From assembly GCF_002161085.1 (NCBI RefSeq), contig NZ_NFLU01000010.1:1-64000 (forward strand): a DNA stretch of 64,000 nt, given 5' to 3'. The notes beneath the pieces are model-generated. The model was not told the origin of the DNA. It ran no database searches and saw only the letters and a list, made by a program, of their open reading frames with translations. Numbering within the stretch: position 1 is the first letter of the stretch; each line of letters opens with the position of its first letter. This stretch comes from Flavonifractor sp. An112 (GTDB taxonomy: Bacteria > Bacillota > Clostridia > Oscillospirales > Oscillospiraceae). The translations under genes and the position numbers were made by a program. This document shows positions 6,822 through 59,788 of the stretch, one piece after another.

Positions 6822-8570
6822 TTACATCTTTTCAGGAGCGGTAACACCGATGAGGGCCAGGCAGTTGGCAATGACGGAACGGACGGTGTCAGCCAGCTTA
6901 AGGCGGGCAGCCAGCACGTCGGCCTCCTCCCCCTTGATGCGGCAGGCGTTGTAGAAGCGGTGGAAATCGCCGGCCAGGGTAATGAGGTAGCGGTTGACGT
7001 GGGAGGGGTCGTAGTCCCGGGCGGAGATACGGATCACCTCGGGCAGCTGGGACAGGGTCTTGATGAGGGCCTTCTCCTCGGCGGTGGTGAAGAGGGCGGC
7101 ATTCACAGCGGCCGCGTCAGGCATCTGGGCGCCCTCCTCAGTGAGGCGGCTCACCAGAGAGCAGATGCGGGCGTGGGCGTACTGGACGTAGTACACCGGG
7201 TTATCGGAGTCCTGCCGCACCGCCAGGTCCAGATCGAAGTCCAGAGCGGAGGTGGAGGACCGGGAGTTGAAGAAGAACCGGGCGGCATCCACGCTAACCT
7301 CATCCAGCAGGTCCCGCAGGGCGATGGCCTTGCCGGAGCGCTTGGACATCCGGACGGGCTGGCCGTCCTGCAGCAGGTTGACCAGCTGCATCAGCACCAC
7401 CACCAGCCGGTGGGAGCCGTCCAGGCCCAGGCCATCCAGGGCGGCCTGGAGGCGGGCCACATGGCCGTGGTGGTCGGCGCCCCAGATGTTGATAGCCTTG
7501 GAGAAGCCCCGCTTCTCCAGCTTGTTGCGGTGGTAGGCAATGTCGGCGGCAAAATAGGTGTAGAAGCCGTTGGCCCGGCGGAGCACGTCGTCCTTCAGGT
7601 CCAGCTTGTCCACCTGCTCCTGGGTCTTGCCCTCAGCCATGAACTTCCGCTTGAGCAGATCGGTGGTGTTGAGCCACAGGGCGCCGTCCTTCTCATAGGT
7701 CCAGCCCTTGTCGGCCAGCATACCCACCGTCTCGGCCACATAGCCGGAGCTGTGGAGGCCGGACTCCAGGAACCACTCGTCGTACTCGATCTGGTAGCGG
7801 CGCAGATCGGCCTTCATCTTGGGGATGTTGACAGACAGGCCGTACTGGGCCATGGCCTCCTGGCGCTCCTCCTCCGGCTTATCCTTCCAGTCGGGGCCGT
7901 GCTGGTCATAGAAGGCCTGGGCCAGCTCCTTGATGTCGTCGCCGTGATAGCCATCCTCGGGGAAGGGATAGTTCTCCTCACCCAGCACGATCTGGAGATA
8001 CCGGGCGTCGATGGACATGGCGAACTTGTGAATCTGGTTGCCGGCGTCGTTGACGTAGAACTCACGCCACACGTCGTACCCAGCCCGGGTGAGAACGCTG
8101 GCCAGAGCGTCGCCCAGCACGCCGCCCCGGGCGTTGCCGATGTGCATGGGGCCGGTGGGGTTGGCAGAGACGAACTCCACCATCACTTTTTCGCCGTGGC
8201 CCTCGTCCACCGCGCCGTAGGTGCTCCCCTCAGCCTGGATGTCGGTGAGGACCTCGCCGTACCACTTGCTGCCCAGGGTGAAGTTGAGGAAGCCAGGGCC
8301 GGCGATCTCCACCTTATCAAAGAAGGTACCCGCCAGATCCAGATTGTCCACAATGGTCTGGGCGATCTGCCGGGGGGCCTTGTGGAGAGCCTTGGCGCCC
8401 GCCATGGCGAAGGAGGAGGCGTAGTCGCCGTGGGTGGGGTCCTTGGGGATCTCGATGGTGGCCTTGACCTCCGCCCCTGCGGGCAGCAGGCCCTGGGCCG
8501 CGGCCTTCTCGTAGGCCGCCTGGGTCAGCTGGGCGACCTGCTCCCGGGCCGCCTGGATCATATTGGACAT
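6822..8570 (-). CDS. argS: Arginyl-tRNA synthetase
   Basis: Class I aminoacyl-tRNA synthetase of 582 residues charging tRNA-Arg. The N-terminal Add1 domain (about 1-110) precedes the HIGH-type motif PMHIGNARGG near residue 120, the KMSKS-type VRMSKRSG near 390 and the DALR anticodon-binding domain at the end (KTLSQLPEVI...YNACRI). The ATG at 8570 follows AAAGGTGAT with 6 nt spacing; thirteen codons of in-frame upstream sequence run through a hairpin and are rejected. It is third in a murI-DUF1934-argS row. The 195-bp leader between DUF1934 and argS is unusually long and full of hairpins, and it lacks a T-box. Confidence 0.97.
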   Translation of the reverse strand: MSNMIQAAREQVAQLTQAAYEKAAAQGLLPAGAEVKATIEIPKDPTHGDYASSFAMAGAKALHKAPRQIAQTIVDNLDLAGTFFDKVEIAGPGFLNFTLGSKWYGEVLTDIQAEGSTYGAVDEGHGEKVMVEFVSANPTGPMHIGNARGGVLGDALASVLTRAGYDVWREFYVNDAGNQIHKFAMSIDARYLQIVLGEENYPFPEDGYHGDDIKELAQAFYDQHGPDWKDKPEEERQEAMAQYGLSVNIPKMKADLRRYQIEYDEWFLESGLHSSGYVAETVGMLADKGWTYEKDGALWLNTTDLLKRKFMAEGKTQEQVDKLDLKDDVLRRANGFYTYFAADIAYHRNKLEKRGFSKAINIWGADHHGHVARLQAALDGLGLDGSHRLVVVLMQLVNLLQDGQPVRMSKRSGKAIALRDLLDEVSVDAARFFFNSRSSTSALDFDLDLAVRQDSDNPVYYVQYAHARICSLVSRLTEEGAQMPDAAAVNAALFTTAEEKALIKTLSQLPEVIRISARDYDPSHVNRYLITLAGDFHRFYNACRIKGEEADVLAARLKLADTVRSVIANCLALIGVTAPEKM

Positions 8571-44024: not shown

Positions 44025-44966
44025 TTACTGATGGATAGCGGTACCGGTGCGGCCGGCCACGCCGTCCTTGGCCTTCTCCAGCAGGGTGATGAGGGCGGAG
44101 CGGCCGGGAGCGCTCTCAGCGAACTCCACAGCGGCCTGCACCTTGGGCAGCATGGAGCCGGGAGCGAAGTGACCCTCAGCGATGTACTTGCGAGCCTCGT
44201 CGGGAGTGAGGGAGTCCAGCCACTGCTCGTTGGGCTTGCCGAAGTTGATGGCCACCTTCTCCACGGCGGTGAGGATGATGAGGGTATCGGCCTCCACCTG
44301 CTGAGCCAGCACGCAGGAGGCGAAGTCCTTGTCGATAACGGCAGCAGCGCCCTTCAGGTGATGACCCTCGGTCTTGTAAACGGGGATACCGCCGCCGCCG
44401 CAGGCCACTACCACCAGGCCGGCAGCCACCATGTCACGGATGGACTGGATCTCAATGATGGACTGGGGCTTGGGAGAAGCCACCACACGGCGATAGCCGC
44501 GGCCGGCGTCCTCGATGACGTTGTAGCCGCGCTCGGCCACCATCTTGTCGGCCTCTTCCTTGGTCATGAAGGCGCCGATGGGCTTGGTGGGATTCTGGAA
44601 AGCCTTGTCCTCGGGGTCCACCTCAACCTGGGTCAGCACGGTGGCCACGCCCTTGTTGATGCCCCGATCCAGCAGCTCCTCCCGGAGGGCGTTCTGCAGG
44701 TCGTAGCCGATGTAGCCCTGGCTCATGGCCACGCACACGGACAGGGGGCAGGGGATGTACTTCTCCGGCTCGGAGCGGGTCAGCTCGGCCATGGCTTTCT
44801 GGATCATGCCCACCTGGGGACCGTTGCCGTGGGCGATGATGACCTCGTGGCCCTCTTCAATCAGATCCACGATGGCCTTGGCGGTCTGCTTCACGGCGAT
44901 CATCTGCTCAGGAAGATTGTTGCCCAGAGCATTGCCGCCCAGGGCGATCACGATACGCTTGCCCAT
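44025..44966 (-). CDS. arcC: Carbamate kinase (ArcC/YqeA type)
   Basis: A 313-residue amino-acid kinase fold enzyme: carbamoyl phosphate + ADP gives ATP, CO2 and ammonia. Motifs are IVIALGGNALG at the start, AHGNGPQVGMI near 50, GYRRVVASPKP near 150, VACGGGGIPV near 180 and VIDKDFASCVLA near 210. In this operon it would draw energy from carbamoyl phosphate made by YgeW-type chemistry, the place of E. coli YqeA. The ATG at 44966 has GAGGTG 6 nt upstream. It is last gene of the unit. Confidence 0.95.
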   Translation of the reverse strand: MGKRIVIALGGNALGNNLPEQMIAVKQTAKAIVDLIEEGHEVIIAHGNGPQVGMIQKAMAELTRSEPEKYIPCPLSVCVAMSQGYIGYDLQNALREELLDRGINKGVATVLTQVEVDPEDKAFQNPTKPIGAFMTKEEADKMVAERGYNVIEDAGRGYRRVVASPKPQSIIEIQSIRDMVAAGLVVVACGGGGIPVYKTEGHHLKGAAAVIDKDFASCVLAQQVEADTLIILTAVEKVAINFGKPNEQWLDSLTPDEARKYIAEGHFAPGSMLPKVQAAVEFAESAPGRSALITLLEKAKDGVAGRTGTAIHQ

Positions 44967-44997
44967 GTTAAACACCTCAATATTCGTAAAATAGTGG

Positions 44998-45092: not shown

Positions 45093-46292
45093 TTACTTCT
45101 GGAACCAACGGGCGATGCCGCGCTCCTCCAGGGCCTTCAGAGTGGCCTGGGGATCCTTAACCTTAGCCAGGAAGATCATAGCGGCGATGATGTAGGGCTT
45201 GTAGGAAGCCTCCTTGTACAGAGGATCACGATAGCGATCGAACACGGAAGCCTCGACCTCGCCATCCTTGCAGGACACGTCGTTGATGTCGGCGGGCAGG
45301 CAGTGCATATACAGAGCCTTGCCGTCCTTGGTGGTCTTCATCAGCTCCTCGGTGCAGCACCAATCCTTGTGGTTGGCGTTCTGAGCCAGCAGCTCCTTCT
45401 CCAGAGCCTTGATGCCGTCGGTGTCGCCCTCGGCGTACAGGTTGGTGCGCTTCTCCATGGCGGCGAAGGGAGCCCAGCTCTTGGGATACACGATGTCGGC
45501 ATCCTTGAAGGCCTCAGCCATGCTGTTGGTCTTGGTAAAGGTGCCGCCGGACTTCTCGGCGTTCTTCTTGGCGACCTCCTCGACCTCGGGCATAACCTCG
45601 TATCCCTCGGGGTGAGCCAGGACGACGTCCATGCCGAAGCGGCTCATCAGGCCGATGATGCCCTGGGGCACGGAGAGGGGCTTGCCGTAAGAGGGGCTGT
45701 AAGCCCAGGTCATGGCGATCTTCTTGCCCTTCAGGTTCTCAACGCCGCCGAAGTGATGGATGATGTGCAGCATATCGGCCATAGCCTGGGTGGGGTGGTC
45801 GATGTCGCACTGCAGGTTGACCAGGGTGGGCTTCTGCTCCAGAACGCCGTCCTTGTGGCCCTGGGTCACGGCCTCAACCACTTCCTTCTGATAGGTGTGG
45901 CCCTTGCCGATGTACATATCGTCGCGGATGCCGATGACGTCGGCCATGAAGGAGATCATGTTAGCGGTCTCGCGGACGGTCTCGCCGTGAGCGATCTGGC
46001 TCTTGCCCTCGTCCAGGTCCTGAACCTCCAGGCCCAGCAGGTTACAAGCGGAAGCGAAGGAGAAACGGGTACGGGTGGAGTTGTCGCGGAACAGGGAGAT
46101 GCCCAGGCCGGACTCAAAGATCTTGGTGGAGATGTTGTTCTCACGCATATAGCGCAGAGCGTCGGCCACGGTGAAGACGGCCTCGATCTCGTCGTCGGTC
46201 TTGTCCCAGGTCAGGAAGAAATCGCCCTCGTACATCTCCTTGAAGTTCAGGGCATTCAGCTTGTCGATATACATCTGCAGAGTCTTGTCCAT
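45093..46292 (-). CDS. ygeW: Knotted carbamoyltransferase YgeW
   Basis: A 399-residue member of the aspartate/ornithine carbamoyltransferase family. The carbamoyl-phosphate loop is FRDNSTRTR (68-76); LQCDIDHPTQAMADM (about 168-182) and MHCLPADIND (about 330-339) are also present, the latter identifying the YgeW branch. The natural substrate is unsettled; in the purine cluster it probably works on a ureido product to give carbamoyl phosphate, which ArcC then uses. The ATG at 46292 has AAGGAGA 9 nt upstream; seven upstream codons are rejected. Confidence 0.95.
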   Translation of the reverse strand: MDKTLQMYIDKLNALNFKEMYEGDFFLTWDKTDDEIEAVFTVADALRYMRENNISTKIFESGLGISLFRDNSTRTRFSFASACNLLGLEVQDLDEGKSQIAHGETVRETANMISFMADVIGIRDDMYIGKGHTYQKEVVEAVTQGHKDGVLEQKPTLVNLQCDIDHPTQAMADMLHIIHHFGGVENLKGKKIAMTWAYSPSYGKPLSVPQGIIGLMSRFGMDVVLAHPEGYEVMPEVEEVAKKNAEKSGGTFTKTNSMAEAFKDADIVYPKSWAPFAAMEKRTNLYAEGDTDGIKALEKELLAQNANHKDWCCTEELMKTTKDGKALYMHCLPADINDVSCKDGEVEASVFDRYRDPLYKEASYKPYIIAAMIFLAKVKDPQATLKALEERGIARWFQK

Positions 46293-46355
46293 TGCAATCG
46301 ATCTCCTTTTCAATATTTAGTCGGTTGGTGGATGGATACGGGTCTCATATCCGCA

Positions 46356-46397: not shown

Positions 46398-47789
46398 TTA
46401 CTTAATGTCGTTGTTGGTCTTGCCGGCGCGGAACTGGGTCACGTCAGCGGTCTTGTTCTCCTCCTTGTACAGGCCGGGCACGGCAGCGTACAGGGCGGCG
46501 CAGGAAACCAGGTCCTGCTTCCAGGTGATCTCGTTGGGGGCGTGAGCCTGAGACTCAGCACCGGGGCCGAAGCCCACGCAGGGGATGCCGTAGCGGCCCT
46601 GGATGGCAACGCCGTTGGTGGAGAAGGTCCACTTGTCGATCAGAGGACGGTGACGCAGGTGCATGGCGCCGTCGGGCCCGATGCGCTCCTCGCCGAACAG
46701 GGCGTGGTGGGCGTCGGCCAGAGCCTGAACGTGAGCGGCGTTCTCCTTGTTGATCCAGGTGGGGAAGTAAGCCTCGGTCTCGTACACCTCGCCGGTCCAG
46801 GAGGGACGGTCGTACATATACATGGAGACCTTCACGTCGTCGCCGTACTTCTTCACGTTGGGCAGGTTGCGGATCTCATCCAGGCAGGAATCCCAGGTCT
46901 CGCCGGCGGTCATACGGCGGTCGATGGAGATGGAGCAGGAGTCAGCCACAGCGCAGCGGCTGGGAGAGGTGTAGAAGATCTGGGAGGTGGTGCAGGTGCC
47001 GCGGCCCAGGAAGCGGGCGTCCTCGTAGTGGTCGGGGTTGTACTTGGGGTTGAGCATCTTCACGAGGCCCTTGATCTCGGTGGAGTCGGCGTCGTCGTTC
47101 TCGTTGAGGGCGCGCACATCCTGGAGAATGTCAGCCATCTTGTAGATAGCGTTGTCGCCGCGCTCGGGAGCGGAGCCGTGGCAGGAAACACCCTTCACGT
47201 CCACGCGGATCTCCATACGGCCGCGGTGACCACGGTAGATGCCGCCGTCGGTGGGCTCGGTGGAAACCACGAACTCAACCTGCTCCTTCTTAATGCCCTT
47301 GGCGGGGAAGAACTTGTTGACGATGTACTGCCAGCACATACCGTCGCAGTCCTCTTCCTGCACGGAGCCCACAACCATGATCTTGTAGCCGTCGGGGATC
47401 AGGCCCAGATCCTTCATGATCTTGGCGCCGTAGGTAGCGGAAGCCATGCCGCCCTCCTGGTCGGAACCGCCGCGGCCGTAGATGACCTCGTCATCCTCGT
47501 AGCCCTCGTAGGGATCGTGGGTCCAGTTGTTGATGTTGCCGATGCCCACGGTGTCGATGTGGGAGTCGAAGGCGATGATCTTGTCGCCCTTGCCCATCCA
47601 GCCAATGATGTTGCCCAGGCCGTCCACCTCGACCTCATCGTAGCCCAGCTTCTCCATCTCGGCCTTGATGCAGGCGACAACTTCCTTCTCCTCGCAGCTC
47701 TCGCTGGGGTGGGAGATCATGGCCCGCAGGAAACGGGTCATATCAGCCTTATAACCTTCGGCAGCAGCTTTGATCTTCTCAAAATCCAT
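46398..47789 (-). CDS. ygeY: YgeY family M20 metallohydrolase (selenium-metabolism-associated)
   Basis: A 463-residue zinc hydrolase. Metal ligands fall in DSHIDTVG near residue 73, [13 protein letters not shown] near 105 and [10 protein letters not shown] near 143; a dimerisation domain follows, and the second His is near the C-terminus (QAHAPNE). The family co-occurs with YgeW and diaminopropionate ammonia-lyase and is thought to hydrolyse an amide intermediate. The ATG at 47789 has GGAGG upstream; the seven preceding codons are rejected. The exact substrate is unknown. Confidence 0.93.
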
Positions 47790-47854
47790 GGTAATGACCT
47801 CCATTTTCAATTTATTTCACGGTTTCATCGGGACATTTCCCGGTCAGCACAAAC

Positions 47855-49090
47855 TTAGTAAGGCTTCTGGGGGGTGTCGATGGTGGGATACTCGCCGTCC
47901 CAGATCACCCGACGGAACTTCAGGGGATCGGTGTTGCCCTCGGTGGAGAACATGAGCACCTGGCTGAAGCGGTTGAGCTCCAGAGCGTCGCGCAGCTCCT
48001 TGTAGGTGTCGTCGCACATGATGGCGTCCAGCACGCCCATACCCACGGCACCGGACTCGCCGGAGATCACAGTGGGATCGCCCTTGACAGGCACGCCCAG
48101 CATACGCATACCCTTGGCGCTCACCCAGTCGGGGCAGGAAATGAAGGCGGAAACATGGTTGCGGAGGATGTCCCAGGAGATGGTGTTGGGCTCGCCGCAG
48201 GCCAGACCGGCCATGATGGTCTGGAGGTCGCCGGTGACGATGCGGGGCTTGCCGTCGTTGGCCAGAGCACCCTGATAGAGGCAGTCAGCAGCGCGGGCTT
48301 CCATTACCACGAACTTGGGAGGATCGTTGGGGAACAGGTTGGTGAAGTAACCCACCACAGCGCCGGCCAGAGAGCCCACGCCGGCCTGCACGAACACGTG
48401 AGTGGGGCGGTTCACGCCGCACTGACGGAGCTGATCGGCAGCCTCGTTGGCCATGGTGCCGTAGCCCTGCATGATCCAGGAGGGGATCTCCTCGTAGCCG
48501 TCCCAAGCGGTGTCCTGCACGATGACGCCGTGCTCGGTCTGCTCAGCCTCGGCGGCGGCCATACGCACGCAGTCGTCGTAGTTGACTTCCTCGATGGTGA
48601 CCTTGGCACCCTCCTTGGCGATGTTGTCAAAGCGGGACTTGGCGCTGCCCTTGGGCATATGTACCACAGCCTTCTGGCCCAGCTTGTTAGCAGCCCAGGC
48701 CACGCCGCGGCCGTGGTTGCCGTCGGTGGCGGTGAAGAAGGTGGCCTGGCCGAACTCCTTGCGGAAGGCCTCGCTGGTCAGGTAGTCGTAGGTCATCTCG
48801 GAAACGTCCCGGCCCATCTCCTTGGCAATGTACTTAGCCATGGCGAAGGAACCGCCCAGCACCTTAAAGGCGTTGAGGCCGAAGCGGTAGGACTCATCCT
48901 TCACATACACGCCGCCCAGGCCCAGGTACTTGGCCATGCCCTCCAGCTGAGCCAGGGGGGTGATGGAGTACTGGGGGAAGGAGCTGTGGAAGAAGCGGGC
49001 CTTGGCCACGTTGGACAGGGACATGACGTCCAGCTGCTTGTCGTCGCTCTTCGGCATTTTATTGAGGACCCATTTGAGCTGGTCTTTCAT
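47855..49090 (-). CDS. dpaL: Diaminopropionate ammonia-lyase (YgeX/DpaL)
   Basis: A 411-residue PLP enzyme that splits 2,3-diaminopropionate into pyruvate and two ammonia. Lys76 in YRFGLNAFKVLGG binds PLP; TATDGNHGRGVAWAA near 120 and the glycine-rich AGVGSLAGAVVGY near 237 hold the cofactor; SGESGAVGMG near 340 is family typical. The ATG at 49090 has TTGGAGG upstream; 22 earlier in-frame codons lie in the leader. It is first gene of the dpaL-ygeY-ygeW-arcC unit, under a strong promoter. Confidence 0.96.
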   Translation of the reverse strand: MKDQLKWVLNKMPKSDDKQLDVMSLSNVAKARFFHSSFPQYSITPLAQLEGMAKYLGLGGVYVKDESYRFGLNAFKVLGGSFAMAKYIAKEMGRDVSEMTYDYLTSEAFRKEFGQATFFTATDGNHGRGVAWAANKLGQKAVVHMPKGSAKSRFDNIAKEGAKVTIEEVNYDDCVRMAAAEAEQTEHGVIVQDTAWDGYEEIPSWIMQGYGTMANEAADQLRQCGVNRPTHVFVQAGVGSLAGAVVGYFTNLFPNDPPKFVVMEARAADCLYQGALANDGKPRIVTGDLQTIMAGLACGEPNTISWDILRNHVSAFISCPDWVSAKGMRMLGVPVKGDPTVISGESGAVGMGVLDAIMCDDTYKELRDALELNRFSQVLMFSTEGNTDPLKFRRVIWDGEYPTIDTPQKPY

Positions 49091-49113
49091 CGAACACTCG
49101 CCTCCAAATTTTC

Positions 49114-49388: not shown

Positions 49389-51959
49389 TTACTTTTTGTA
49401 GTAGGTCTTTTCCATGGGCAGGCTGGTACGCAGGATGTGATCCTTGGCGTAATAGGCGCCCTGGACAGCCGGTGCAGTGGGGATGGTGGCGATCTCACCG
49501 ATGCCCTTGGCGCCGTAGGCGAAGGGCAGCAGCTCGTCCTTCTCCACATAGATGGCGTGGATATCGGGGATCTGGTTGGACCGCATCAGGCCCAGAGTGC
49601 CGTACTTGGCCTGGGGCACGCAGTCCTTCAGGGGGAAGTCCTCGGTGAGGGCGTAGCCCAGACCCATGAGCACGCCGCCCTCGATCTGACCCTGGATGGA
49701 GGTGGGGTTGACCACCTTGCCGGAGTCGTGGGCCGCGTAGACCTCCTTGACCTGACCCTCGTCGTCCAGAATGACCACATGGGTGGCAAAGCCGTAGGCC
49801 ACATGGCTCTTGGGATTGGGCTTGTCGGAGCCCAGCTTGTCGGTGGGATCGAAGAACTCGGCAAAGTACTCCTTCCCTTCCAGCTTGGACAGGTCGCCGT
49901 TCACCTCGTCCATATCCTTCTTCAGATCCACGGCGGCCATACGCACGGCCTCGCCGGTAATCAGGGTCTGACGGGAGCCGGAGGTAGTACCGGAGTCGGG
50001 AGCCACTTCAGAGTTGGCACCCATGTTCCGCAGCAGCAGCCGGGGCAGCCCGGTGGTCTGGGAGAGGACCTGGAGGAAGACGGTGGCGCAGCCCTGACCG
50101 ATGTCGGAGGCGGCGGCATACAGCTCCACCATGCCGTCACGCACCACCAGCTTGCAGCGGCCCTTGTCGGGCAGGCCCACGCCCACGCCGGCGTTCTTCA
50201 TGGCGCAGGCGATGCCCGCGTGGTCCATGTTGGCCTCGTACACGTCCTTGACCGCCAGCAGGGTCTCCTTCAGAGCGGTGGAGCAGTCGGCGATCTGGCC
50301 ATTGGGCAGCACCTTGCCGGGCTCAATGGCGTTGCGGTAGCGGATCTCCCAGGGGGAGATGCCTACCTTCTCGGCCAGCAGGTTGATGTTGGACTCCAGG
50401 GCAAACTCGCTCTGGCACACGCCGAAGCCACGGAAGGCACCGGCAGGAGGATTGTTGGTGTAGTAGCCGAAGCCGCGGATGTCGGTATTCTGGTAGCAGT
50501 AGGGGCCCACGGAGTGGGTGCAGGCACGCTCCAGTACGGGGCCGCACAGGGAGGCATAGGCGCCGGTGTCGAAGTAGATCTCGCAGTCCAGACCGGTAAA
50601 GATGCCGTTCTCATCGCAGCCCAGGGTGAAGGTACCCTCCATATAGTGGCGCTTGGGGTGGAAGTTGATGGACTCCTGCCGGGTGAACTTCACCTTCACC
50701 GGCTTGTTCACCTTCAGGGCCGCCAGCACCGCCAGGTGCTGCACGGACACGTCCTCCTTGCCGCCGAAGCCGCCGCCCACGAACTTGTTCTCCACCACGA
50801 TGCGGTCTGGCTCCCAGCCCAGCATGATGGAGATCTCCTTCCGGGTGTCGTACACGCCCTGGTCGGAGGTGTACACCTTCACGCCGTCCTTGTAGGGGAA
50901 GGCCACGGCGCACTCGGGCTCCAGGAAGGCGTGCTCGGTGAAGGGAGTCTTGTAGCTCTGGGTCACCACATACTTGGAGTTGGCCAGGGCGGTCTTGGCG
51001 TCGCCCCGGGTCACATGGCGCTGCTGGCACAGGTTGCCGTTGGGGTGGAGCTTGGGGGCATTCTCGGCCATGGCCTCCTGGATGGAGCGCACCGGCTCCA
51101 GCTGCTCGTAGCTGATCTTCACCAGCTTCTTGGCCTGGGCCAGCACCTTCTCGTTCTCAGCAACCACCAGGCAGATGGCGTCGCCCACACAGCGGGTGAT
51201 ATCGCCCTTGGCGATGAACACATCCCAGTCCTGCTGGATGTGGCCCACCTTGTTGTTGGGCACGTCCTCAGCGGTGAGGACAGCCAGCACGCCGGGCAGC
51301 TCCAGGGCCTTGGAGGCGTCAATGTCCAGCACCTTTGCTCTGGGATACTGGGAGCGGACGGCGGAGGCGTGAACCATGCCCTCCATCTCGATGTCGTCAC
51401 AGTAGGCGCCGCTGCCCAGCACCTTGCCCCGCACGTCAGTGCGGAAGGCCCGGTCGCCCACGCCGTATACGTCGCCCTTCTCCAGCTCGGGGTCGATCTT
51501 CTCCTCTCCCCGGAGGATGGCGGCGGTGAGGGAAATACCCTCAATGATCTTCTTGTAGCCGGTGCACCGGCAGATGTTGCCCCGGATGGCCTTCTTGATG
51601 TCGGCCTCGGAGGGATTGGGGTTCTGGTCAATGAGGGCCTTGCCCGCCATCACCATACCGGGGATACAGAAGCCGCACTGGACGGCGCCCACCTTGCCGA
51701 AGGCGTACACAAAGGCCTCCTGCTCGTCGTGGGACAGGCCCTCTACGGTAAGGATGGTCTTACCCACCGCCTTCTTGGTGGTGAGGACACAGGACTTGAC
51801 GGCCTTGCCGTCCACCACGATGGTACAGGTGCCGCAGGCGCCTTCGCTGCACCCGTCCTTGACGGAATAGAGGTGCAGATCGTCGCGCAGATAGCGCAGC
51901 AGGGGCTTATCCTCCTCGGTGGTACGGAGGAGGCCGTTTACGGTAAAAGAATAGCTCAT
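49389..51959 (-). CDS. xdhD: Molybdenum hydroxylase (XdhD-type, selenium-dependent xanthine dehydrogenase family), Fe-S and Mo domains fused
   Basis: An 856-residue enzyme. An N-terminal 2x[2Fe-2S] domain has Cys37, 42, 45, 57 and Cys95, 98, 130, 132. The molybdopterin domain follows from about residue 165: GGGFGGKED near 375, FRGFGVCQSEFA near 480, and GAKGIGEIATIP near 825 with the catalytic Glu. It matches XdhD of E. coli and the Se-dependent xanthine dehydrogenase family, which hydroxylate or, in the urate pathway, may reduce purines. There is no FAD subunit gene; electrons probably pass to YgfK and the 4Fe-4S protein encoded upstream. No in-frame UGA. The ATG at 51959 has AAAGAGGG upstream. 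Confidence 0.93.
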   Translation of the reverse strand: MSYSFTVNGLLRTTEEDKPLLRYLRDDLHLYSVKDGCSEGACGTCTIVVDGKAVKSCVLTTKKAVGKTILTVEGLSHDEQEAFVYAFGKVGAVQCGFCIPGMVMAGKALIDQNPNPSEADIKKAIRGNICRCTGYKKIIEGISLTAAILRGEEKIDPELEKGDVYGVGDRAFRTDVRGKVLGSGAYCDDIEMEGMVHASAVRSQYPRAKVLDIDASKALELPGVLAVLTAEDVPNNKVGHIQQDWDVFIAKGDITRCVGDAICLVVAENEKVLAQAKKLVKISYEQLEPVRSIQEAMAENAPKLHPNGNLCQQRHVTRGDAKTALANSKYVVTQSYKTPFTEHAFLEPECAVAFPYKDGVKVYTSDQGVYDTRKEISIMLGWEPDRIVVENKFVGGGFGGKEDVSVQHLAVLAALKVNKPVKVKFTRQESINFHPKRHYMEGTFTLGCDENGIFTGLDCEIYFDTGAYASLCGPVLERACTHSVGPYCYQNTDIRGFGYYTNNPPAGAFRGFGVCQSEFALESNINLLAEKVGISPWEIRYRNAIEPGKVLPNGQIADCSTALKETLLAVKDVYEANMDHAGIACAMKNAGVGVGLPDKGRCKLVVRDGMVELYAAASDIGQGCATVFLQVLSQTTGLPRLLLRNMGANSEVAPDSGTTSGSRQTLITGEAVRMAAVDLKKDMDEVNGDLSKLEGKEYFAEFFDPTDKLGSDKPNPKSHVAYGFATHVVILDDEGQVKEVYAAHDSGKVVNPTSIQGQIEGGVLMGLGYALTEDFPLKDCVPQAKYGTLGLMRSNQIPDIHAIYVEKDELLPFAYGAKGIGEIATIPTAPAVQGAYYAKDHILRTSLPMEKTYYKK

Positions 51960-51975
51960 CTGTGGTCCCTCTTTC

Positions 51976-52527
51976 CTATGCAAAGTCAGCCACGGTAAAG
52001 ACGCCGTCAGCGTCCACGATCACGCCCCGGGGGCACTTTACCGCGCACATTCCGCAGGAGATGCAGCGCTCCGGATCGATGACCGCGTGGTTGTCCACCA
52101 TGGTAATGGCGGCCGCCGGACAGTTGCGCTCGCACATACGGCAGGTGATGCAGCTGACGTCGCAGGCATTCCGGGCCACGGGGCCGGCATCCTGATTGGA
52201 GCAGCGGGGCACGATGGTGGTGTCCGCGTCCACCAGACGGATCAGGCCCTGGGGGCAGGCCTCCACGCACAGGCCGCAGCCCACGCAGGCCTCCCGGTCC
52301 ACCACGGCAGCGCCGTGGACACCGATGTGGATGGCGTCCAGACGGCAGGCCTCCACGCAGCTGCCCAGGCCCAGGCACCCCTGAGCGCACTCCAGCACTC
52401 CGTCGGCAAAGGCCTGCTTTGCCATGCTGCAATCCAGGTAGGACAGATCCGCCTCTCCCCGGCGCTTGGCCCGGCTGCCGCCGGCGCAGTACACCATGGC
52501 GATACGGTTGTTTTGGGTCGGTGCCAT
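51976..52527 (-). CDS. 4Fe-4S ferredoxin-type electron-transfer protein
   Basis: A 183-residue protein with three ferredoxin-like cluster motifs: CVGCGLCVEACP (about 81-92), CITCRMCERNCP (about 123-134) and CISCGMCAVKCP (about 154-165), and an N-terminal Cys-rich CAQGCLGLGSCVEAC (about 47-61). It resembles RnfB-like or YgfS/HydN-type electron carriers. Sitting 16 nt before xdhD and behind ygfK, it probably moves electrons between them. The ATG at 52527 has AAGGAGG 9 nt upstream. Confidence 0.88.
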   Translation of the reverse strand: MAPTQNNRIAMVYCAGGSRAKRRGEADLSYLDCSMAKQAFADGVLECAQGCLGLGSCVEACRLDAIHIGVHGAAVVDREACVGCGLCVEACPQGLIRLVDADTTIVPRCSNQDAGPVARNACDVSCITCRMCERNCPAAAITMVDNHAVIDPERCISCGMCAVKCPRGVIVDADGVFTVADFA

Positions 52528-52602
52528 GTTGGGTTCCTCCTTACACAGGGCGGGCTCCAGGGATTCCCGCCCGGTCAGTATTCCATCGTCCAATCCACCT
52601 AT

Positions 52603-52685: not shown

Positions 52686-55682
<2,997 letters not shown>

Positions 55683-55946: not shown

Positions 55947-57287
55947 TCAGTAAGTGCAGTGGTTCAGCTCGCCCCACAGCTTCTTGGCCTGTTCCATGCA
56001 CCAGGCGTTGATCTTGTCCTCGTCAATGCCCACGAACTCGCGGTCCTTGTACAGCACCTTGCCGTTGATGATGGTGGTGCGGCAGTTCTTGCCCATCATG
56101 CCAAAGAGCATATGGCCATCGATGTTGGCGTCGGAGAAGGGAGTGAAGGGCTTGTAGTCCATCACGATCACGTCGGCAGCGGCGCCGGGCTTGAGCACGC
56201 CCAGAGGCTTCTTGAAGTAGCGGGAGCAGATCTTGGCGTTGTTCTGGAAGAGCATCCCGGTGGCCTCGCACCAACCCACGTTGGGCTGACAGACGTTGTG
56301 GCGCTGCATGGGCAGCAGGACCTTCAGGCTCTCCAGCATATCGTGGGTGTAGGCGTCGGTGCCCAGACCGATGAGGATGCCCCGGTTGTACAGCTGCAGC
56401 ACGGGAGAGCAGCCCACGGCGTTGCCCATGTTGGACTCGGGGTTGTGGCAGACCATGGTGTTGGTCTCCTTGATGATGTCCATCTCGGCGGGAGAGACGT
56501 GGATGCAATGGCCCAGCATGGTCTTCTCGCCCAGGATGCCGTTGTACAGCAGGCGGTTGATGGGGCGGCAGCCGTAGTTCTGCAGGGAGTCGTACACGTC
56601 GTTCATGCCCTCGGCCACGTGGATGTGGAAGCCGGTCATGCCGTCGTTGGCCTTGACCATCTTCTCAAAGGTCTTGTCGGAGATGGTGAACAGGGCGTGG
56701 CCGCCGAACATGGCCTTGATCATGTCGTCGTCCTGCTCCTTGGCCCACTTAGCGAAGTCGGCGTTCTCCTGAATGGACTGATCGCACTTCTCCTGGCCGT
56801 CACGCTCGGACACCTCGTAGCAGAGGTTGGCGCGCATACCCAGCTCCTTGCACACGTCCTTAATGGCAAAGAGGGAACCGGGGATCTCACAGAAGGAGGC
56901 GTGGTGATCAAAAATGGTGGTCACGCCGTCCCGGATGCAGTCCAGGATGGTGGCGTAGGCGCAGGCGCGGGTGCCATCCAGGGTCAGGTGGCGGTCGATG
57001 TACCACCACTGGCCGTCCAGCACCTCAAAGAAGTTGGTGGGATTGAAGCCGTTGATGGACAGGCCCCGGGCCAGACCGGAATAGATGTGAGTATGGACGT
57101 TGATAAGGCCGGGCATGATGACGCCGCCCTTGGCATCCACGAACTCGGCATCGGGATACTTGGCCTTCATGTCGGCCAGGGAGCCGACCTCCTTGACCAC
57201 CTCGCCGTCCAGAACAACGGCGCCGTCTTCCAGATAAGGGAGCTCCTCGCTCCGGGTGATGAGTCTGCCATTACCGACCAGCAGCAT
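55947..57287 (-). CDS. ssnA: SsnA family aminohydrolase
   Basis: A 446-residue metal-dependent amidohydrolase. Metal ligands are His65 and His67 in INVHTHIYSG, a His in HIHVAEG near 233, one in CIHVS near 270 and Asp in GLGTDAYTHDM near 312. The relatives are chlorohydrolases and guanine/cytosine deaminases, and SsnA belongs to the E. coli purine cluster, so deamination or ring opening of a purine product is likely. The ATG at 57287 has AAAGGAGG upstream. It is first gene of the unit; expression is gated by a terminator in its leader. Its last 23 codons are duplicated downstream. Confidence 0.95.
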   Translation of the reverse strand: MLLVGNGRLITRSEELPYLEDGAVVLDGEVVKEVGSLADMKAKYPDAEFVDAKGGVIMPGLINVHTHIYSGLARGLSINGFNPTNFFEVLDGQWWYIDRHLTLDGTRACAYATILDCIRDGVTTIFDHHASFCEIPGSLFAIKDVCKELGMRANLCYEVSERDGQEKCDQSIQENADFAKWAKEQDDDMIKAMFGGHALFTISDKTFEKMVKANDGMTGFHIHVAEGMNDVYDSLQNYGCRPINRLLYNGILGEKTMLGHCIHVSPAEMDIIKETNTMVCHNPESNMGNAVGCSPVLQLYNRGILIGLGTDAYTHDMLESLKVLLPMQRHNVCQPNVGWCEATGMLFQNNAKICSRYFKKPLGVLKPGAAADVIVMDYKPFTPFSDANIDGHMLFGMMGKNCRTTIINGKVLYKDREFVGIDEDKINAWCMEQAKKLWGELNHCTY

Positions 57288-57325
57288 AGTAAGTTCCTCC
57301 TTTAAATTTCGTTCTTTTTCTCCGT

Positions 57326-57416
57326 AAAAAAATTGCCCATTCCTGGTGGAATGGACAGTACAAATTCGTTCTTCTCTAGGTTGCATCCGCAACCCAGCCG
57401 AATTCCATGTCCATCC
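57326..57416 (-). promoter_or_regulatory. Conditional terminator (riboswitch- or attenuator-like) in the ssnA leader
   Basis: Terminator: TGTCCATTCC-ACCA-GGAATGGGCA (57357 to 57334), 10 bp with one G-U pair, then A and seven U (57332-57326), ending 39 nt before the start codon. Competing pairing: GGATGGACA plus AATTCG (57416-57399) with CGAATT plus TGTCCATTCC (57368-57348), about 15 bp with one bulge and a small internal loop. The two folds share the TGTCCATTCC arm. A GGTTGC-GGAT-GCAACC hairpin lies in the loop of the alternative fold. Confidence 0.75.
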
Positions 57417-57452
57417 AGCCCGTGCGCGAAAGCACTCCGTTGCAGCTACAAC
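57380..57452. repeat. Two copies of a 14-bp palindrome in the ssnA leader
   Basis: GTTGCATCCGCAAC (57380-57393) and GTTGCAGCTACAAC (57439-57452) agree at 11 of 14 positions. They may be operators for the divergent PAS/HTH regulator, or RNA hairpins; both fall after the predicted transcription start. Confidence 0.45.
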
Positions 57453-57505
57453 TTTTTATATGGAAATTTGTGCATCTTGCATAGTTTCATTCTCTCGTTG
57501 TTTTT

Positions 57506-57534
57506 ATGTTACCACACTTCGCACGGATATGCAA
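57506..57534 (-). promoter_or_regulatory. Promoter of the ssnA-ygfK-xdhD unit
   Basis: TTGCAT (57529-57534), 17-bp spacer, TAACAT (57506-57511), giving a leader of about 210 nt before ssnA. This explains most of the 427-bp gap. Confidence 0.65.
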
Positions 57535-57580
57535 TACTTTTGTTAGAAAAACAAAAAATTTTTTAGGTCCGCAAAATGAG

Positions 57581-57627
57581 TTGAATCTGAGCTGAAATGT
57601 GGTAAAATGATAGAGATATATTTTACC
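57581..57627 (+). promoter_or_regulatory. Promoter and palindromic operator of the PAS/HTH regulator gene
   Basis: TTGAAT (57581-57586), 16-bp spacer, TAAAAT (57603-57608). GGTAAAAT (57601-57608) and ATTTTACC (57620-57627) form a perfect inverted repeat over the -10 and start region, a good place for autoregulation. Confidence 0.65.
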
Positions 57628-57714
57628 GTCTGCCGCTGAATCGGTGACCTTTGGTGCCCATTCCTCCGGGGGTGCCTGCCGCTCTGGCGCAGACTCTGAA
57701 AGGAGGGAATCTAC

Positions 57715-58353
57715 GTGCCAGAAGCATCTACCCTGCAATTCCTCTTCAAACTGGCCAAAGGGATCGCCAGCCAGTTTGGTCCCAACTGCGAGGTGGTGGT
57801 TCATGACCTGGCCACCAACGATCCGGAAAGTTCCATCGTCGCCATTGAAAACGGGCAGGTTACGGGACGTAAGGTGGGCGATGGACCGTCTCATGTGGTC
57901 CTGGAGGCCCTGCGGGGCAATCAGGACCAGCTGCAGGATCACCTGTGCTACCTAACCCGCACCAAGGACGGCAAGATCCTCAAGTCCACCACCATCTACA
58001 TCCGGGATGACGACGGCACCCCCATCGGGATCTTCGGCATCAACTACGATATCACCCTGATGCTGGCCATGGAGACTGCGCTCAAGCAGTTCACCGCCAC
58101 TGAACGGGAGGAGAAGGAGCCCGAGCCCATCTCCCGCAATGTCTCCGATCTGCTGGATGAGCTGATGGAGCAGAGCGTGAAGATCGTGGGCAAGCCTGTG
58201 GCGCTGATGAATAAGGAAGACAAGGTGAAGGCCATTCAGTTCCTGAACGACACCGGCGCCTTCCTTATCACCAAAAGCGGCGACAAAGTATGCAAGTTCT
58301 TCGGAATCTCCAAGTATACGCTGTACAGCTACATTGATGAAGCTAAGGAATGA
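57715..58353 (+). CDS. YheO-like PAS domain transcriptional regulator (DauR type)
   Basis: A 212-residue DNA-binding protein. An N-terminal YheO-like PAS domain (about 5-115: FGPNCEVVVHDLATNDPESS, about 21-40, and GIFGINYDITLML near 105) would sense a small molecule; the C-terminal HTH domain (about 150-212) ends KVCKFFGISKYTLYSYIDEAKE (split over about 190-211). GTG start, with AAAGGAGGG 8 nt upstream. It is divergent from ssnA and convergent with the purine permease, so it is the likely controller of the cluster. The ligand is unknown; a purine or a pathway intermediate is a guess. Confidence 0.88.
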   Translation: MPEASTLQFLFKLAKGIASQFGPNCEVVVHDLATNDPESSIVAIENGQVTGRKVGDGPSHVVLEALRGNQDQLQDHLCYLTRTKDGKILKSTTIYIRDDDGTPIGIFGINYDITLMLAMETALKQFTATEREEKEPEPISRNVSDLLDELMEQSVKIVGKPVALMNKEDKVKAIQFLNDTGAFLITKSGDKVCKFFGISKYTLYSYIDEAKE

Positions 58354-58406: not shown

Positions 58407-59735
58407 TTATTTACTCTCCTTGTCCTTGGGCAGGACCAGATTGAGGATGATGGCCATGATGGTGGCAACTACCACGGAGGAGGAACCGAACACGGTGTTG
58501 ACCCAAGTGGGGAAGCCCTCGCCGGCCAGGCAGCCGGACACCTGGGTGATACCAACGCCCAGAGCCACAGACAGGCCTACCACGGAGCTCTTGCGGGGGG
58601 TAAAGCCGCCCTCGGTGATCATGCGGATGCCAGTCATGGTAATGGTGGCAAACACCGAGATGGTGGCGCCGCCGATGACGCTCTGGGGAATGGTGGTGAG
58701 CAGGGAGGCAAACTTGGGCATCAGACCGGCCACCAACAGGATACCGGCAGCCAGAGCAAAGACCGCCCGGTTGATGACCTTGTTGACGGTAACGATACCC
58801 ACGTTCTGGCTGTAAGTAGCAGCAGGGAGGCCGCCGAAGAAGGCGCCCAGGATGCTCATAACGCCCTGGCCAATGATACCGCCGGACAGTTCGCGATCGG
58901 AGGGCATCCGGTCCATGCCGCCCATGGTGGTGGAGGACAGGTCGCCGATGGTCTGCACCGCGTTAACCACATACACGATACCCAAAGACACGGCAGCAGC
59001 GGGGACAAACTTGATCTCAAAGGGCATAAACTGGGGCAGCGCGGCCCACTGAGCGGTCTCCACGCCGGAGAAATTCACCATACCCAGGGCCATGGCCACA
59101 AAGTAACCCACAATCATACCGATGAGAATGGCACCCAGCTTGAAGATACCCTTGGTGAAGTTGGTGAGAATAAACACCACCGCCAAGGTAATGAGGGCTA
59201 CCAGCCAGCTCTTCGGAGTTCCGAACTCAGGGGTGCCGGCACCACCAGCCATATAGCGCACCGCAGTGGGATAGAGAGACAGGCCAATGGTGAAGATAAC
59301 GGTACCGGTGACCAGAGGCGGGAAGAGGGGGCGGATCCACTTGACAAAGATGCCAAAAACAATGGCCACACAACCGCCAATAATCTCGGCGCCAAGAATT
59401 GTGGCAATATCGAATTCCGTTCCAATCGCCTGCAGGGTGGGGATGTATGCGAAGCTGATGCCCATGATAACGGGCAGGCCGGCACCGATGCGCCGGAAGA
59501 TGGGGAAAAGCTGGAGCAGAGTGGCAAGGGCGGTCAGGATCAGGGAGACCTGAATCATCAGGGTCTTCTCTGCTTCGCTCAGACCACAGGTGTTGGCAAC
59601 CAGAATAGCAGGCGTAATGATACCCACTACCGCGGCCACCACGTGCTGGAGGCCCAGGGGGATCAGCTGACCCGGCTGGGGGATACCGTTCCATTGAAAT
59701 ACGGTATCAGAGTTCTTTGTTTTTGGTGTACCCAT
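58407..59735 (-). CDS. NCS2 family nucleobase:cation symporter (xanthine/uric acid permease type)
   Basis: A 442-residue membrane protein with 14 helices of the UraA/UapA fold. The NCS2 signature lies in NAVQTIGDLSSTTMGGMDR (about 262-280) and GGLPAATYSQNVGIVTVNKV (about 301-320), and GLQHVVAAVVGIITPAIL is in helix 1. The sequence suits purine (xanthine/urate) carriers better than uracil carriers, and so does its place beside the purine cluster. The ATG at 59735 follows GAGGTGA by 5 nt; three upstream codons are rejected. Its promoter lies about 55 nt upstream. Confidence 0.9.
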   Translation of the reverse strand: MGTPKTKNSDTVFQWNGIPQPGQLIPLGLQHVVAAVVGIITPAILVANTCGLSEAEKTLMIQVSLILTALATLLQLFPIFRRIGAGLPVIMGISFAYIPTLQAIGTEFDIATILGAEIIGGCVAIVFGIFVKWIRPLFPPLVTGTVIFTIGLSLYPTAVRYMAGGAGTPEFGTPKSWLVALITLAVVFILTNFTKGIFKLGAILIGMIVGYFVAMALGMVNFSGVETAQWAALPQFMPFEIKFVPAAAVSLGIVYVVNAVQTIGDLSSTTMGGMDRMPSDRELSGGIIGQGVMSILGAFFGGLPAATYSQNVGIVTVNKVINRAVFALAAGILLVAGLMPKFASLLTTIPQSVIGGATISVFATITMTGIRMITEGGFTPRKSSVVGLSVALGVGITQVSGCLAGEGFPTWVNTVFGSSSVVVATIMAIILNLVLPKDKESK

Positions 59736-59788
59736 TCCAATCACCTCACAAAAATTTTTTTGCCCAAATAGTTTTTTTGCTCAACCAA

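Follow-up and report, generated by a model that had tools for sequence, protein, structure and literature searches.

The ssnA gene of the window, by which we mean the whole 64,000-nucleotide stretch of Flavonifractor sp. An112 DNA that was analysed, lies on the minus strand behind a leader of about 210 nt (about 57499-57288, with the ssnA ATG at 57287). The locus raises the question of whether this leader decides if the genes behind it are transcribed, and in response to what. We hold it fairly probable that the leader is an ON-type transcription-termination switch, probably a riboswitch, in which the RNA family RF03031 (ssnA RNA) is the sensor and a reductive urate-degradation operon the target, the signal probably being urate or yanthine.

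All genes of the operon are on the minus strand. The aminohydrolase gene ssnA (55947-57287; NF005540, 650 bits, cut-off 444) is followed by ygfK (52686-55682; TIGR03315, 1416 bits, cut-off 835), a gene for a 4Fe-4S protein (51976-52593; Pfam Fer4 and relatives) and, in the place of xdhD, a gene for a xanthine-dehydrogenase-type molybdenum enzyme (49389-51965; TIGR03311, 1259 bits, cut-off 830). The preliminary description of this DNA had given the order ssnA-ygfK-4Fe-4S-xdhD. The order stands, the operon is longer than described, and the naming of the last gene needs correction: it fits TIGR03311, NCBI's selenium-dependent xanthine dehydrogenase model, and scores under the cut-off of every other listed model of the xanthine-dehydrogenase type. 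The enzyme probably acts as a urate reductase. The operon continues through ygeX (diaminopropionate ammonia-lyase; 47855-49105, start codon provisional; TIGR03528, 629 bits, cut-off 532), ygeY (46398-47810; NF009555, 620 bits, cut-off 321), the carbamoyltransferase gene ygeW (45093-46313; TIGR03316, 808 bits, cut-off 500) and the carbamate kinase gene arcC (44025-44975; TIGR00746, 379 bits, cut-off 358), which identifies it as an operon for reductive urate degradation. In E. coli, according to the accessible parts of two reports (PMC12507026, PMC12990295), XdhD turns urate into yanthine (2,8-dioxopurine), the ring is opened by YgfK and SsnA, and HyuA, YgeY, YgeW and YgeX complete the pathway. 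Judged by its gene content, the operon is a nearly complete reductive urate pathway, such enzymes making up the pathway together with hyuA. The enzymes of the gut bacterial uric-acid pathway were worked out in 2025, while PMC12507026 describes how the pathway is regulated across gut bacteria as poorly understood. On the 5' side of ssnA are a divergent gene for a YheO-like PAS_6/HTH_22 regulator (57715-58353, plus strand; domain matches), of DNA-binding type by its HTH, and beyond it a gene for an NCS2 xanthine/uracil-type permease (58407-59744, minus strand; model matches).

Transcription of the leader would start near 57499, from a probable promoter at 57534-57506 (minus strand) with a -35 box TTGCAT (57534-57529) and an extended -10 box TGG-TAACAT (57511-57506). 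A consensus scan did not return this promoter at the threshold used. Near relatives show, by eye, letters resembling TTGCA and TGTGGTAANAT at a similar position. At the other end of the leader a 10-bp intrinsic terminator hairpin (57357-57334) is read directly and borne out by covariation. Its 5' arm TGTCCATTCC (57357-57348), the loop ACCA and the 3' arm GGAATGGGCA (57343-57334) are followed by one A and a seven-U tract (57332-57326, T7 in the DNA), and 38 nt lie between the last U and the ssnA ATG. The 5' arm has a second possible partner, the antiterminator strand GGATGGACA (57416-57408), found by direct reading and covariation and separated from the arm by 50 nt. In the ON fold of the window this pairing is extended by GAATTCG (57405-57399) with CGAATTT (57368-57362) and encloses a hairpin, CTGGGTTGC GGAT GCAACCTAG (57397-57376), whose core is GGTTGC-GGAT-GCAACC (57394-57379). 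The enclosed hairpin lies in the most variable stretch of the leader, with a mean identity of 61% against 93% for the RF03031 element in eight near relatives. As the terminator 5' arm is common to both folds, antiterminator and terminator are mutually exclusive. The terminator with its ACCA loop and seven U, the alternative partner with its AATTCG/CGAATT extension, and the exclusive folds around the enclosed hairpin had all been pointed out in the preliminary description, and direct reading agrees with it on each.

The window by itself would not prove a switch. A terminator scan with lax settings returns one site in the window against 0.6 (sd 0.8) in shuffles, so that the terminator alone is not significant, and of 200 shuffles 10.5% are as complementary to the terminator arm as the upstream segment is (p 0.105), again not significant alone. 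The fold of the 145-nt stretch 57470-57326 beats all of 200 shuffles (z -3.38). The strong evidence is comparative.

The candidate sensor is RF03031, matched over its full length (1-48) at 57455-57407 on the minus strand by cmscan with 52.5 bits (cut-off 37.3). It is the sole RNA family in the whole window at Rfam gathering thresholds, and a scan of 57250-57720 at E<=1 gives no family besides it. The preliminary description, which had noted no purine-riboswitch core, was correct on that point and missed this catalogued element, the likely sensor. The element lies on the same strand as ssnA with 119 nt between it and the ATG. Its stem P1 pairs 57447-57444 with 57420-57417, with a weak additional pair U57448-G57416, and P2 pairs 57435-57432 with 57425-57422; an 8-nt internal loop (57443-57436) faces G57421. 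The 3' strand of P1 reaches to 57417/57416, and 57416 is also the first position of the antiterminator strand GGAUGGACA; the antiterminator therefore begins at the end of the element's conserved stem. The family was reportedly first described by Weinberg et al. in 2017. The Rfam model spans 48 positions only, without terminator or antiterminator, and the window copy is likewise upstream of ssnA. A literature search, with the 2017 source paper and most subscription papers outside its reach, found no report on ssnA RNA, and the accessible text of an orphan-riboswitch review (PMC7266159) does not mention ssnA. The RNA class is thus already catalogued, as a cis-regulatory orphan family of which the window locus is one member; what seems to be added here is that the element is coupled to terminators, and this in several layouts, together with the ON logic and further target genes.

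Conservation of the element is high. When identical stretches are merged, 88 distinct sequences remain of 121, and across these 16 of the 35 positions of the window copy are invariant, among them G13, A15, A16, G18 and A20 of the internal loop and the bulged G34; the element has the conserved aptamer-like core with invariant unpaired nucleotides that is looked for in a riboswitch. P1 and P2 are paired in 97.1% of cells. The covariation score is 0.135 against 0.112 in shuffles that preserve column make-up, not relatedness, and is reached by none of 500; double-changed cells number 11 against 3.4. Three pairs change on both sides, no more than in shuffles, which is put down to the strong conservation of the element. 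RF03031 is the likely sensor of the ssnA leader.

A terminator follows the element in 119 of the 121 distinct element-bearing leaders and is present in 4 of 49 element-free ssnA leaders, the stretch searched being that from element to gene in the former and the final 150 nt in the latter. The 49 come from the best 80 of 339 loci encoding an SsnA relative, sorted by a regular expression into 31 with and 49 without the element; diverged elements among the "element-free" loci could escape this expression, which fits all 111 covariance-model leaders and partly imposes its conserved letters on the ten named leaders added. Rfam scans of 14 of these 49 loci at gathering thresholds gave no other riboswitch. 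Excluded before sorting were L197 and L199 (weak matches, not before ssnA) and the sub-cut-off L031-L035, L202 and L203.

The terminators are coupled to the element in several ways. In the direct type (20 leaders, nine genera) 3 or more nt of the element core go into the terminator stem, and 7 or more in 17 of the 20 (only 3 in L169, L190 and L191), as in L187 (13 bp of GCGCGCACGGGCC) and L170 (ACGGGCUUCC...). In those leaders where many nucleotides are common to element and terminator, the two cannot coexist. Eleven of the 20 direct terminators beat all of 100 shuffles of the downstream part and 17 beat at least 99; L157, L190 and L191 are unconvincing, with 5, 13 and 17 shuffles as strong. 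Group A, the 33 leaders including the window that remain after the direct, abutting and group B leaders are removed, has room for a separate antiterminator upstream of the terminator arm. Antiterminator strength was not a criterion of membership; the complementarity reaches p<=0.05 against shuffles in 20 of the 33, and the antiterminator is flush with P1 in 23 against 4.5 expected. In the 60 leaders of group B, whose membership was set by CUAUC-like letters, a CACUC/GAGUG hairpin overlaps the terminator base only, and an outer stem GAUUGRUAG/CUAUCACUC competes with P1; the alternative pairing takes up at least half of the terminator arm in just 23 and reaches p<=0.05 against shuffles in just 19. 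Six abutting leaders have a terminator that starts at the P1 end and no visible antiterminator. By the criterion used, two leaders have no terminator, L105 and L183; in L183 there is a strong hairpin, but its U tract is weak. At L105 the Shine-Dalgarno site of ssnA follows the element (7942-7975) after about 12 nt, which suggests that in this lineage the element controls translation. The ON logic fits the direct and group A leaders; the layouts of group B and of the abutting leaders fit an ON switch less clearly.

Covariation of the competing stems in related leaders had been proposed in the preliminary description as the check on its idea, and both stems show it, again measured against shuffles that keep column make-up, not relatedness. 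In the 26 group A leaders that were aligned (L166, L173, L175, L179, L182, L188 and L198 were excluded as having antiterminators of other kinds) the antiterminator helix is paired in 83.5% of cells. The ON structure of antiterminator plus element scores 0.195 against 0.139, a value reached by none of 500 shuffles, and has 26 double-changed cells where shuffles have 13.5, every one of the 26 within the antiterminator helix; shuffles are not exceeded in the number of double-changing pairs (4, shuffles 4.1) or of further pair types (15, shuffles 17.4). The terminator scores 0.383 against 0.268 (none of 500 shuffles), with 23 double-changed cells against 5.5. Outer stem and hairpin of group B, aligned in 54 of the 60 leaders (four identical stretches, L004 and L130 excluded), score above all shuffles, with the best-covarying outer pair unpaired in 39 of the 54 and a single double-changed cell in the CACUC/GAGUG hairpin. 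These comparative data support the gated-transcription layout proposed earlier, gating in the cell being putative. A P1-sequestering OFF hairpin, GGCUGGAU/AUUCGGCU, present in the window fold, was also considered as a conserved anti-antiterminator. It is paired in 73.5% of cells against 74.0% in shuffles, with a covariation score of 0.155 against 0.178, and was rejected as a conserved feature.

For the ON folds the element was imposed as a constraint and the RNA was cut short ahead of the terminator 3' arm. In the window, P1 is then followed directly by the antiterminator, and this by the extension and the inner hairpin; in 32 of the 33 group A leaders this fold occupies half or more of the terminator 5' arm. 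Once the 3' arm is present, the computed energies favour the terminated state in every type. The median advantage is 12.5 kcal/mol for group A leaders (range 7.8-23.6), 16.6 for those of group B, 17.2 for abutting and 24.4 for direct ones, so that an ON switch must be kinetic. In the terminated fold, half or more of the pairs within the element survive in 46 of 60 leaders of group B and in 11 of 33 of group A. The median cost of forcing the element on cut group A RNA is 5.5 kcal/mol, and the complete set of P1 and P2 pairs occurs in none of the 33 free folds; in these models both are as would be expected if a ligand were needed, a need that energies cannot show. In the window, exclusion runs through the antiterminator only, because element and terminator have no nucleotides in common there. 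The partner of the antiterminator end adjoining P1 is the part of the terminator arm nearest the loop, where invasion by the 3' arm would begin.

A possible course of events follows this geometry. RNA polymerase would make the element, next the antiterminator strand GGAUGGACA and next the terminator 5' arm, which would pair back to GGAUGGACA. With no signal P1 would be unstable, the terminator 3' arm would invade the antiterminator, and transcription would halt 38 nt before ssnA. With the signal bound, P1 would be held and stacked flush on the end of the antiterminator where invasion must begin, at the loop-proximal C-G pairs of the terminator, and this stable stack may delay invasion while polymerase passes the U tract, allowing read-through. 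The window leader would thus act in the ON direction by kinetic capping, with a metabolite presumably bound by the RNA alone.

A small molecule from the pathway is the most probable signal, with urate or yanthine (2,8-dioxopurine) as the best candidates and xanthine or another intermediate also possible; urate induces urate-degradation genes in gut bacteria, as stated in the accessible part of PMC12990295. A wider proposal is tentative, and we give it somewhat less than even confidence: RF03031 would form a class of ON riboswitches responding to urate or yanthine that switches on the whole reductive urate pathway of gut bacteria, in one genus including a hydantoinase and an NfnAB-like electron supplier. 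The element might instead be the binding site of a purine-responsive RNA-binding antiterminator protein of the LicT/BglG kind, which we regard as rather unlikely. At about 30 conserved nt, with a stem and an asymmetric internal loop, it is short and of a size that proteins also recognise, and the switch layout is equally compatible with such gating. The genes on the 5' side of ssnA argue weakly against a protein: the two identified are those for the PAS_6/HTH_22 protein, a DNA-binding type, and the permease, neither of them of the BglG family, and the PAS_6/HTH_22 gene seems by eye to be upstream of element-free ssnA loci too, which again weighs weakly.

The direction of the response bears on an OFF switch or feedback device, in which the bound element would favour the terminator, for instance by stacking of P1 on the terminator base. 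The six abutting leaders, with a terminator that begins at the P1 end and a geometry that permits coaxial stacking, are compatible with this, yet the 20 leaders that build their terminator from the element (17 with at least 7 core nt) speak against it, since folding of the element should prevent termination there; a degradation operon is moreover expected to be induced by its substrate, in line with the urate induction in the available text of PMC12990295. We judge such an OFF device improbable. Still less probable is a constitutive terminator of fixed polarity, with the element serving RNA stability or translation only. L105, where the element precedes the Shine-Dalgarno site without a terminator, would suit it, but the antiterminator is conserved and covarying and element and terminator occur jointly. 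Ordinary attenuation through a translated leader peptide appears extremely improbable. The window leader does have ATG-started short frames, one of 14 codons ending within the element, but the near relative L030 lacks the ATG of this frame, and a short frame with a Shine-Dalgarno-like site overlaps the leader in only 13 of 111 cases, at differing places and with differing sequences that are not conserved.

In the accessible text of PMC7373994, the xanthine riboswitch (NMT1 motif) is likewise a hairpin with a conserved internal bulge tied to purine breakdown, and binds xanthine and urate; it turns genes off, likely at translation, whereas the ssnA leader is proposed to be ON, and its authors name no oxidised-purine degradation genes under its control. 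The NMT1 family model has no match in 57250-57720 at E<=1. Guanine/adenine (purine) riboswitches, which control purine-related genes, have no Rfam match in window or leader, unlike RF03031. In fluoride and ZTP riboswitches the bound aptamer blocks terminator invasion to give an ON transcription switch; the likeness is one of working only, as the ligands are unrelated and neither has an Rfam match here. If the proposal is true, RF03031 would be a riboswitch class activating the breakdown of oxidised purines, of the kind speculated on, and not found, by the discoverers of the xanthine riboswitch in the available text (PMC7373994), and a function is thereby proposed for an orphan RNA family. A leader with defined sensor, antiterminator and terminator would make regulation of the urate pathway directly testable in vitro, and might be turned into a urate or yanthine biosensor.

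In a sample of 400 genomes of the window's family the element occurs in 110 at E<=0.001, 103 of them over the cut-off; SsnA is found at E<=1e-100 in 131, and both occur together in 105. In the class sample (391 genomes, own included) only the window's own genome is over the cut-off, with five sub-cut-off matches, and in the phylum sample (398, own included) one other genome is (L201), with two sub-cut-off matches. In L201, too, the element precedes ssnA (tblastn identity 57%), and it recurs in one congener (L219). A further RF03031 match in the window's own genome was not found at E<=0.001. SsnA is encoded downstream at 106 of 114 element loci; the other eight are at contig ends (L130, L194), before other genes (L170, L176, L189, L193) or weak matches (L197, L199).

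In the genus of G740 there are 15 element sites in 8 of 11 genomes, one of them sub-cut-off: seven before ssnA, three before hyuA-like and five before NfnA-like genes. The hyuA-like target was called by family as a dihydropyrimidinase/D-hydantoinase (TIGR02033, 552 bits for the L170 protein). The NfnA-like target encodes a sulfide/dihydroorotate dehydrogenase-like FAD/NAD-binding protein; at L189 gltA comes next, giving a gene pair which we take to be NfnAB-like. At sites of both types the terminators use the element's strands (computed for L170, L176, L189 and L193, by eye for L204, L205, L214 and L217), and in NfnA-type leaders the element 5' strand GCUGUAAC pairs with GUUACGGC right before the U tract. 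That one element precedes genes for enzymes of successive steps as well as for a likely electron supplier speaks for a signal of the pathway, not one specific to ssnA.

A PAS_6/HTH_22-like gene start is seemingly present, by eye, upstream of several element-free ssnA loci, and two layers of control are therefore likely. Between promoter and element of the window lies a dyad, CTATGCAAGATGCACA (57484-57469, minus strand), and CTGTnnAnnnTnnACA-like dyads are seen by eye at about the same position in many near relatives; it is possibly a DNA operator, perhaps for the divergent regulator. Ten loci (L054, L055, L056, L057, L059, L060, L061, L063, L065 and L067) encode an SsnA 85-89% identical to that of the window, and their leaders have neither the element nor a terminator-like hairpin. 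As these close relatives are without both alike, the module seems to be gained or lost as a unit. At L201, outside the family, a degenerate second copy of the element (about 1463-1494) lies just upstream of the intact one and is possibly a decayed tandem.
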